A stretch of DNA of 64,000 bases, taken from the NCBI RefSeq assembly GCF_026409565.1, contig NZ_CP112881.1:1535501-1599500 (forward strand), read 5' to 3'. A program made the translations under genes and the position numbers. Below the pieces are notes generated by a model. The model was not told where the DNA came from. It saw nothing but the letters and a program-made list of their open reading frames with translations, and searched no databases. Shown here in pieces: positions 50,862 through 52,680 of this stretch (position 1 is its first letter; the number at the start of each line of letters is the position of its first letter). The stretch comes from Sneathiella aquimaris (GTDB taxonomy: Bacteria; Pseudomonadota; Alphaproteobacteria; Sneathiellales; Sneathiellaceae).

Positions 50862-51032
50862 TCAGTGAGTTGTTTCGATTGCCGATTGTCGGTCAATTTT
50901 ATAAGCAATCTCTGATGCGATATCGTGCCAGCCAAATTGGCGTGCGGCATGAAGGGCCCGGTGTAACCCACATGTATCAATTAGATTTTGTGCGATTGCT
51001 CGTTTGTCAGTCTCTAGGTATGTGCTGGCCAT
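50862..51032 (-). CDS. Small hypothetical protein, 56 residues
   Basis: Starts MASTYLETDKRAIAQNLIDT, with a helical body RALHAARQFGWHDIASEIAYK. The ATG at 51032 has GGGAG 8 nt upstream, which sets it apart from chance frames. It is soluble and mildly basic. I do not recognise the family. It stands alone between the DJ-1 gene and the candidate RNA region. Confidence 0.55.
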   Translation of the reverse strand: MASTYLETDKRAIAQNLIDTCGLHRALHAARQFGWHDIASEIAYKIDRQSAIETTH

Positions 51033-51156
51033 ACTGTTTACTCCCAGCGTAAATCTGAACATAAAAGGACTTTAGCGTTAATCCATGAATTTTAGGTAAA
51101 GATAAAATACGTTTTTTGTTGGTCGAAATCAGGGTCAATTTTTGATATTAGAAAAC

Positions 51157-51185
51157 TTGAATTTACAGATTAAATGTGCCATACT
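51157..51185 (+). promoter_or_regulatory. Predicted sigma-70 promoter of candidate RNA
   Basis: TTGAAT (51157-51162), 17-nt spacer, CATACT (51180-51185). The -10 has two mismatches to consensus. No protein-coding gene with a ribosome binding site follows. Confidence 0.45.
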
Positions 51186-51191
51186 TCTTTT

Positions 51192-51303
51192 ATTGATTTG
51201 CTGCTATTTCCGAAGGGCAACCTGCCTTAAGGACACAGAAACATAGAAACGAGCGACTGGCAGCAGTCAATAGATAACGATGTCAAGGACGTCTGAATTT
51301 TTT
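51192..51303 (+). ncRNA. Candidate structured small RNA
   Basis: The region after the predicted promoter folds by eye. ATTGA (51192-51196) pairs with TCAAT (51267-51271), and GCTGC (51200-51204) with GCAGC (51260-51264), closing a large domain. An inner hairpin pairs AAGG-CA with TGCCTT (51213-51228). A weak terminator follows: GATGTC (51279-51284) with GACGTC (51288-51293), then TGAA and six T (51298-51303). No known family is recognised. The next 400 nt (51304-51707) contain a 95-codon open frame at 51387 that lacks a ribosome binding site and is not supported. Confidence 0.4.
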
Positions 51304-51707
51304 GGGCGCCGACCGGATATATGGATGAACTTTTGGGACGCTTTTTTATGGCGCCGTGCTTGAAATAGAGATTTCCCATCCGGATTATGAGCATTGACAC
51401 CGCGAGGATTGAAAACAGTTCTGGTGCTTTACGGAGGCCGGGACTTTATGAAAATCTTTTGCACGCCCCGAGAAATCTCTCTGGACGAAATTTATTGCGT
51501 CCGCTGGTCGTCTATTTTTGCCCCTCCCATCAACTTGATCTTTTCAAGAATCAGTGCTCCTTATTGATAAAGAGTGCCTCTTATGGCGGACAGGATGGAC
51601 TGTTCCAACCTTTTGCATTGCAAACAGCGTGCTCCATCAGTGGGTATCAGGGCGTTCTTTTCATTTCATCCTAACAAATCAGGCGAATGCTCTTTCAATC
51701 ACCCTGT

Positions 51708-51893
51708 TCATGAAACGGAGGCGCCGAAATACTGATAGAGAAGGGCAATAACAACCGCAATTCCGAGCCAAAGAGCCACATTTTTCAATAATCCGTTCAT
51801 GCCGGTTCGGCGCACATGATAGACAAAGCCGGGCAAAACTAAAAAAAATGCCATAAACAGGCCAATAAGCTGCAATACACTAAATTCGTCCAT
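51708..51893 (-). CDS. Small membrane protein, 61 residues
   Basis: Begins MDEFSVLQLIGLFMAFFLVLPGFVYHVRR and ends WLGIAVVIALLYQYFGASVS, giving two membrane-spanning segments (about 6-24 and 37-55) with a short basic loop between. I recognise no family. AGGG lies about 11 nt upstream of ATG 51893, which is only fair, and the in-frame ATG at 51932 lacks a signal sequence advantage. It is divergent from the YfgM-like gene, 139 nt away. Confidence 0.65.
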   Translation of the reverse strand: MDEFSVLQLIGLFMAFFLVLPGFVYHVRRTGMNGLLKNVALWLGIAVVIALLYQYFGASVS

Positions 51894-52032
51894 GATCTTT
51901 ATTCCCTGACATTCATTTCTATGTATTATCACGGAGCGATATGAAAAGAGCTAAATTTGTGTAACAACAATTGCCTTCCGACTGCAGGCGGTTTATTTTA
52001 TCCGTCAAATTTTAGAGATACTGGAGCATTTT

Positions 52033-52680
52033 GTGTCTGATATTTTCAGTGAAGTGGATGAAGAAGTCCGCAAAGACAAGTCAATGGAACTTTGGAACAG
52101 GTATGGCAAATTTGTCATCGCCGGTTCGATCTTGGTCGTTGCGGCGACGGCAGCCACAGTTGGATGGAAAAATTACCAACAGTCTGAATCCCGGGCGCAG
52201 GGAAAACAGTTCGAAGATGCTTTGGCATTGATCGGCGAAAAGAAATTTGATGAGGCCTCTTCTGCGTTTGCTGCTTTGGCGGAAACGGGCAGTGAAGGAT
52301 ATCAGGCGTTGGCACTGTTGCGGCAGGCTGACGCTTTGCTGAAGGCGGGAAAAGGCGATGAAGCCGTTGCTGTCTTTGATGCAATCGCAGCCAATGACGC
52401 ACTTGCTGAAGAATTCCGGGGACTGGCTTCCATCAAAGCTGGTTTTTACCTGTTGGATAATGGAACTGCTGATGATGTTCGCCAGCGTGTTACAGATGCG
52501 AGTGCACCGGGGGGGATCTGGTCTGCATTGGCAAAGGAAATTCTGGCGCTGAATGACTTGAAAGCAGGGAAAATCGATGAAGCGCGCCAACAATTTTCTG
52601 CGCTAAAAGAAGACGCGTCTGCTCCATCGGGGGTAAAGCAGCGGGCCGCAGAGTTACTGCTGGCCATAGAAAACAAATAA
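52033..52680 (+). CDS. YfgM-like TPR-type inner-membrane protein
   Basis: A 215-residue protein with a cytoplasmic start (MSDIFSEVDEEVRKDKSMELWNRYG), one membrane helix at about 26-44 and a periplasmic TPR-like domain (ALALIGEKKFDEASSAFAALAETGSEGYQALALLRQADAL and later repeats). This is the YfgM arrangement; YfgM in gammaproteobacteria works with PpiD as a periplasmic chaperone next to SecYEG. The gene order with bamB and der downstream is the same. GGAG about 7 nt before the GTG at 52033 supports the start. Confidence 0.88.
   Translation: MSDIFSEVDEEVRKDKSMELWNRYGKFVIAGSILVVAATAATVGWKNYQQSESRAQGKQFEDALALIGEKKFDEASSAFAALAETGSEGYQALALLRQADALLKAGKGDEAVAVFDAIAANDALAEEFRGLASIKAGFYLLDNGTADDVRQRVTDASAPGGIWSALAKEILALNDLKAGKIDEARQQFSALKEDASAPSGVKQRAAELLLAIENK

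Follow-up and report, generated by a model that had tools for sequence, protein, structure and literature searches.

In the stretch of Sneathiella aquimaris DNA that we analysed (64,000 nucleotides, hereafter the window), the ORF map leaves a 645-base gap at 51063-51707 between two short minus-strand ORFs, one at 50862-51062 on its left and one at 51708-51932 on its right, and the question raised by this locus is whether the gap is empty DNA or houses the gene of a functional RNA. The original prediction placed a new structured small RNA, with a promoter and a terminator of its own, at 51157-51303. Our comparison with relatives indicates that the gap does house an RNA gene; on sequence evidence we regard it as nearly certain that this is a real and independent gene for a structured non-coding RNA, and what lies here is probably an undescribed functional RNA rather than empty DNA. 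A new structured RNA with its own promoter is borne out by the conservation of that promoter, by covariation, by a syntenic place ahead of yfgM and by the lack of any Rfam match, whereas the terminator, the size and the boundaries first proposed have to be given up. The span 51157-51303 holds the promoter and the start of the RNA but just about its 5' third, because conservation continues for about 200 nt past the supposed terminator. By comparison among relatives the RNA would extend from about 51192 (+1) to about 51505 on the plus strand, which is about 310-315 nt. Downstream on the same strand, at 52033-52680, is a gene with a TPR_21 domain match, followed by bamB, which has a BamB domain match in the domain search, and then by der; we take the first of these to be yfgM, and both this name and the assignment of der are judged from the sequence.

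A DNA search with 51100-51420 against 60 relatives matched eight genomes, one of them the source of the window and another a match by chance, and the matching part was mostly downstream of the end first proposed. The yfgM gene was located in 29 of 30 relatives and then in seven of seven others, and the stretches upstream of it were compared. A pattern search with the 3' motif of the RNA through bacterial and archaeal genomes matched 22 stretches, labelled Sneathiella (14), Sneathiellales (one), Alphaproteobacteria (five), Proteobacteria (one) and Bathyarchaeota (one). The resulting set consists of 25 distinct copies, one from each of 24 Sneathiella genomes and one (L081) from a metagenome-assembled genome (MAG) labelled Sneathiellales. 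A covariance model, R1, was trained on 11 copies of one sequence type (B-type), with the window's copy, which is of the other type (A-type), outside the training set. This model scores the window copy at 67.5 bits (E 5.5e-17), recovers all 25 RNA loci given to it (the weakest at 15.0 bits, E 0.012) and gives a 26-position match (E 0.83) in one of 18 other sources, all of these E-values being rough. Two matches were rejected as chance: R1 finds nothing in the Bathyarchaeota stretch, nor at the locus of a 29-base match in a genome of another family (G029), which lies, by eye, within an apparent protein-coding frame.

Across the order, R1 finds the RNA in 23 of 25 genomes, with one copy apiece; the two misses are G014, which has a divergent copy, and G024, the sole genome of another genus. 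By eye, an ORF just ahead of yfgM in G024 resembles a thioredoxin-family protein. A second model, R2, had all 25 copies in its training set, which makes its scores for Sneathiella genomes, G014 included, circular, so that only its misses elsewhere count; in a sample of 385 genomes of the class it matched five, all of them Sneathiella, and none of the other 380, under stricter filters that can lose weak matches. No match to the RNA was found in plasmid and phage collections. In 23 of the 24 Sneathiella genomes the RNA copy and yfgM share a contig and a strand, with the RNA upstream, and in the remaining one (G010) the RNA and yfgM are on different contigs. The RNA has so far been seen only in Sneathiella and in the one MAG labelled Sneathiellales, and within Sneathiella it is a single-copy gene whose place is conserved among the genomes compared. 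Two copies, L032 (from G014) and L050 (from G023), are shortened and divergent, and still have the hairpin of P4c, P6 and the tail described below; L032 is about 250 nt long and, by eye, also keeps P3 and P4 stems in rewritten form.

The sigma-70-like promoter with a 17-nt spacer is where the original prediction had put it, at 51157-51185 on the plus strand (-35 TTGAAT at 51157-51162, -10 CATACT at 51180-51185), and the spacer is kept in relatives, among which the consensus TTG(C/A)AT-17-(T/C)ATA(A/C)T recurs. When the 25 copies were scored for TTGCAT/TATAAT-like sites at a constant 17-nt spacing, the highest TTGCAT-17-TATAAT score was at least 11 in 18 of 25 loci, against 3 of 400 shuffled stretches, and in 23 copies the top-scoring site coincided with the promoter as we read it. 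For L004 the promoter site is visible in a separate sequence comparison, and for L050 it is weaker and was read by eye. The window promoter itself scores 10, as high as 35 of 400 shuffled stretches get, and a standard promoter scan missed it (it listed one site elsewhere, against a chance expectation of 1.6); it is credible because it is conserved, despite this miss. Ahead of the -35 is a conserved upstream box, ATATTAGA, at 51145-51152 on the plus strand, where ATTAG is present by eye in 19 of 25 loci, and this box is a putative UP element or regulator site.

The architecture that we propose would consist of a 5' domain (P1), a junction that is closed by P2 and encloses the P3 hairpin and the P4 arm, and a 3' domain enclosing P5 and P6, all on the plus strand. 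A conserved linker, ATAAC (51274-51278), precedes the 5' strand of P2, GATGTCAA (51279-51286), whose partner is TTGACACC at 51394-51401. Seven of the eight P2 pairs in the window are standard, 51280/51400 being A-C. The P3 hairpin (51287-51310) is formed by GG-A-CGTCT/GGGCGCC with a bulged A at 51289, and the P4 arm (51313-51383) by P4a (CCGGAT/ATCCGG), P4b (GGATG/TTTCC, weak in the window) and P4c, which is GG-A-CGC/GCG-CC at 51336-51341/51351-51355 with a bulged A at 51338. Among the relatives P2 is rewritten in several forms, for example GATGTCAA/TTGACACC, GATGCCAA/TTGGCACC, GATACCAA/TTGGTATC, GATGTTGA/TCAACATC and GGTGTCGA/TCGACATC.

The original prediction had suggested an alignment with relatives as a check on its paired blocks, and this revealed compensatory changes in several helices, beyond the level of the controls. 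Alignment A1 is an unfitted MAFFT alignment of 21 of the 25 distinct loci, the divergent L029, L032, L036 and L050 being omitted, and a scan of it for all possible helices ranks P2 first. In these 21 sequences 92.5% of P2 cells are paired, compared to 20-44% in slid controls; two-sided changes number 21 against 7.0 in shuffles, six of seven pairs have changed on both sides, and the covariation of 0.489 (0.286 shuffled) was reached by none of 500 shuffles. The number of further pair types is unexceptional, being matched by 131 of 500 shuffles for P2 in A1, and by 235 and 46 of 500 for all the pairs counted in its two parts, A2 and A3, respectively. The outermost counted P2 pair is A-C in nine of the ten A-type copies, that of the window included. 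Within A2, the ten copies of the window's A-type, the 47 pairs counted show 87.8% pairing and 29 two-sided changes against 9.7 shuffled; P3 is 94.3% and P4a 90.0% paired, and five of the ten rows are one column off at P4c and were scored as unpaired there. In A3, the 11 B-type copies, pairing reaches 96.2% over 36 pairs, and there are 23 two-sided changes against 9.0 shuffled.

Alignment A5, of all 25 copies and fitted to a covariance model, gives 24 of 36 pairs with a two-sided change and 104 cells with such changes against 35.8 shuffled, counts that lean towards structure because the alignment was model-fitted. RNAalifold on A5 recovers P2, P3, P4 and P6, and a helix scan of 23 of its rows, with L032 and L050 omitted for poor alignment at P2-P4, ranks P3 first and P2 second. 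P4c is invariant in all 23 rows of A5 that have letters there, and since its pairs, the outer pairs of P6 and the bulged A do not vary, covariation cannot prove them. Their constancy is also partly a product of selection, because the pattern used to collect the 25 loci demanded the P4c and P6 strings, although the search with R1, too, gave none but copies having these strings. The core fold of P2, P3 and P4, the promoter and the synteny are shown by comparison, at the level of sequence, as is the distinctness of the RNA from the catalogued RNAs against which it was tested.

The terminator did not survive this comparison. A terminator scan does flag 51279-51293 followed by T (three such sites found, 0.8 expected), and this is the hairpin of the original prediction; however, on its 5' side this hairpin consists of the P2 strand GATGTCAA, which pairs with TTGACACC at 51394-51401 in the best-covarying helix, its 3' arm is part of P3, and conservation runs on for about 200 nt. 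Of the 25 aligned copies, four have at least five consecutive T in the P3 loop, and one is without letters at this place. Because the terminator reading fails, the size and boundaries that had been drawn from it are unsupported. A hairpin with a T-run can thus be misread as a terminator when the real partner strand is about 108 nt away.

What follows P2 is the 3' domain (51401-51499), made up of P5, a variable apical hairpin, P6 and a tentative P7. P5 (AGGATT/AATCTT, 51405-51410/51453-51458) is 100% paired without a two-sided change in A2, and the tentative closing helix P7 (CGCG/TGCG, 51401-51404/51496-51499), which shares 51401 with P2, is 95% paired, also without a two-sided change, so that both are unproven. 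The P6 hairpin, CGCC...GG-A-CG at 51464-51487 with a bulged A at 51485, has its outer four pairs and its bulged A in 25 of 25 rows. It is followed by a conserved tail, AAATTT..TGCG (51488-51505), where sequence conservation stops. Past the tail, a run of at least four T occurs within 40 nt in 11 of the 25 copies, at differing positions, and the 3' end of the RNA may arise from an unconserved terminator, from processing or from Rho.

At the other end of the RNA, every element of the stem first described is present: the two parts ATTGA/TCAAT (51192-51196/51267-51271) and GCTGC/GCAGC (51200-51204/51260-51264) and the inner hairpin make up P1 (51191-51272), whose closing stem is 51191-51206/51258-51272. 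The segment 51190-51305 folds at -31.3 kcal/mol (z -2.89; two of 200 shuffles equally good), and the full 320 nt is unremarkable by folding alone (z -1.07; 11 of 100 shuffles equally good). Copy-by-copy folding of P1 in 21 of the 25 copies, excluding L029, L032, L036 and L050, gives a mean z of -2.17 with 17 of 21 under -1; in four B-type copies P1 has z from -0.5 to +0.6, hardly or no stabler than shuffles. The sequence of P1 is replaced between species and the closed stem is retained, usually running from just past the RNA start to just ahead of the linker.

The statement that no coding frame fits was largely right. Within the RNA the longest closed ATG frame in the window has 27 aa, and a 95-aa ORF in the ORF map (51387-51674) starts within the RNA and leaves it at the 3' side. 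We rejected a coding sequence because the longest closed ATG frames within the RNA range from 12 to 69 aa and differ widely among the 25 loci. The left-flanking ORF contains a 56-aa protein (50862-51032, minus strand) ahead of the RNA, with no Pfam or NCBIfam family match and with a core that reads, by eye, NLI(D/E)TCGLxRAxHAAxQ(F/Y)GWxDIA. This protein is found in 22 of the 24 Sneathiella genomes and in two of 115 genomes of the class, both Sneathiella, and in 18 of 25 distinct loci it neighbours the RNA, no more than about 0.9 kb ahead of the core match. It was not found in G011, which is 99% complete and has the RNA, nor in G012, which is 70% complete; in G024, of the other genus, there is a weak homologue (E 2.0e-7) and no RNA match. 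Since it was not found in the RNA-bearing G011, the 56-aa protein is probably no obligatory partner of the RNA. On the right, a membrane-type protein of about 60 aa without a Pfam family (51708-51893, minus strand) is ahead of yfgM in relatives too.

The original prediction recognised no RNA family here and set aside tmRNA, SRP RNA and RNase P RNA, and the Rfam searches agree, with no family at threshold. With 4227 families of Rfam 15 at gathering scores the RNA is unmatched, the only matches in the window being two tRNAs; a gathering-score scan of 13 of the 25 loci gave no match, and ARAGORN found no tmRNA within the window. We searched the literature for small or noncoding RNA in Sneathiella and found no publication on this RNA. 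The size, own promoter, single copy and conserved place would all fit a diverged housekeeping RNA beyond the reach of the Rfam models (6S, RNase P RNA, tmRNA or SRP RNA). Against this, permissive Rfam scans of three copies gave nothing below E 1, and all four housekeeping RNAs are found elsewhere in this genome above the Rfam cut-off, which makes such an identity highly improbable. RNase P RNA (RF00010; G000:C1:2915799-2916181, minus strand, 332.3 bits), alpha tmRNA (RF01849; G000:C1:3042581-3042910, plus strand, 270.3 bits) and bacterial small SRP RNA (RF00169; G000:C1:3509586-3509681, minus strand, 61.3 bits) are each the sole match in the genome, and 6S RNA (RF00013) is at G000:C1:3109102-3109260 on the minus strand (159 nt, 59 bits). 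The RNA resembles 6S RNA in being stand-alone and single-copy with its own promoter, but is about twice as long, has a long-range helix enclosing P3 and P4 and has no Rfam match. Four Sneathiella 6S genes (L062, L060, L063 and L064) have a -35-like TTGCA(C/G) box, related to the -35 of the RNA, that by eye overlaps with the last part of an upstream reading frame, and a weak -10, with 8-9 of 12 matches.

Four further explanations have to be weighed. Since the RNA is on the same strand as yfgM and upstream of it in the 23 loci where both are on one contig, it could be a 5' leader, a riboswitch or an attenuator, of yfgM-bamB-der. The gene map disfavours this, as it does any reading as a protein-coding leader: the RNA stops about 530 nt short of yfgM (52033), the minus-strand ORF 51708-51932 is in between, the distance between the 3' motif of the RNA and yfgM varies among relatives, at about 320 to 850 nt, and by eye there is a conserved promoter-like stretch directly upstream of yfgM, so that we consider a leader very improbable. 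That stretch, TTGC...TTTATTTT, is at 51970-52010 in the window and was read by eye just ahead of yfgM in Sneathiella. Many bacterial regulatory RNAs act by base-pairing with mRNAs, and the main rival is a regulatory RNA of this sort (Hfq- or ProQ-type) in which the ATAAC linker and the AAATTT..GCG tail pair with target mRNAs. An independent promoter, an intergenic position and a conserved A/U-rich tail past P6 speak for it; however, the most constant parts, P4c and P6, are paired and offer no free seed, and the T-runs past the tail, found in fewer than half of the copies and in differing places, give no common one. We regard base-pairing as unlikely, though as an explanation that deserves serious weight.

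Both remaining alternatives draw on the repeated GG-A-CG strands. Here, GGA triplets exceed the expectation from composition in 22 of 24 copies (10 against 5.4 in the window), and GGACG/GGATG has what we take to be a resemblance to the CsrA motif, as would suit an RNA that sequesters CsrA. RNAs of the CsrB/RsmZ type carry repeated GGA-containing modules in one RNA, and the Sneathiella RNA is alike in this; it differs in that the conserved GGA triplets are, on the predicted fold, in the stems of P3, P4a, P4b, P4c, P5 and P6 and not in loops, and that CsrA (PF02599) was found in none of 25 genomes of the order, some of them incomplete, by a search that was positive in the controls E. coli, B. 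subtilis and T. maritima. We rejected a CsrA sponge on the latter ground and give it next to no credence. A shape-changing RNA, in which a ligand or protein shifts the pairing between domains, is suggested by the GG-A-CG strands of P3, P4c and P6, each of which could pair with any of three CGCC strands. Against it, B-type copies lack the common sequence in P3; the covariation scans are uninformative on this point because the GG-A-CG/CGCC strands hardly vary. On balance such a switch is improbable.

Taken as a whole, the reading that we favour by a modest degree, from comparative evidence, is a stand-alone, sigma-70-transcribed, multi-domain RNA of about 315 nt that would act in trans by binding protein. 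On its own, the mechanism, action in trans through the binding of one or more proteins, is a tentative proposal. It rests on the helices with a bulged A, which share 5'-GG-A-C(G)/(C)G-CC; the module occurs in P4c and P6 of both sequence types and in P3 of one, where it is present in nine of 25 copies. Protein binding fits best because identical modules repeat among stems that change fast while preserving their fold. The near-invariant bulged-A helices and the AAATTT..GCG tail would form the protein-binding surface, and the fast-changing stems of P1, P3 and P5 would act as spacers, their fold being required and their sequence free. The outcome could be a sequestering RNA or the scaffold of an RNP.

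The Sneathiella RNA forms a new family among the stand-alone structured RNAs of bacteria, a broad kind already known. Bacteria have few large RNAs of this kind, and GOLLD, ROOL and OLE are larger than the Sneathiella RNA. These orphan ornate RNAs are similar in that they are multi-domain non-coding RNAs, according to PMC12286853, and different in that no Rfam model matches the Sneathiella RNA. The raiA-motif RNA (ModT) is likewise a conserved structured bacterial non-coding RNA, which according to PMC11706538 occurs in over 2,500 species, all from other phyla, whereas the Sneathiella RNA was seen only in Sneathiellales among the genomes searched and is without an Rfam match.

A conserved promoter of its own, a single copy, a fixed place and a fold that is kept while its stems are rewritten are the marks of an important gene. 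It is conceivable, if rather doubtful, that the RNA is the core of a lineage-restricted, core-genome RNP, in which an abundant RNA would use the bulged-A helices of P3, P4c and P6 to bind a protein that has not so far been linked to RNA, genus-wide and not found in G024, the genome of the sister genus. The comparative model supplies boundaries, helices and compensatory changes that can be tested in cultured strains.
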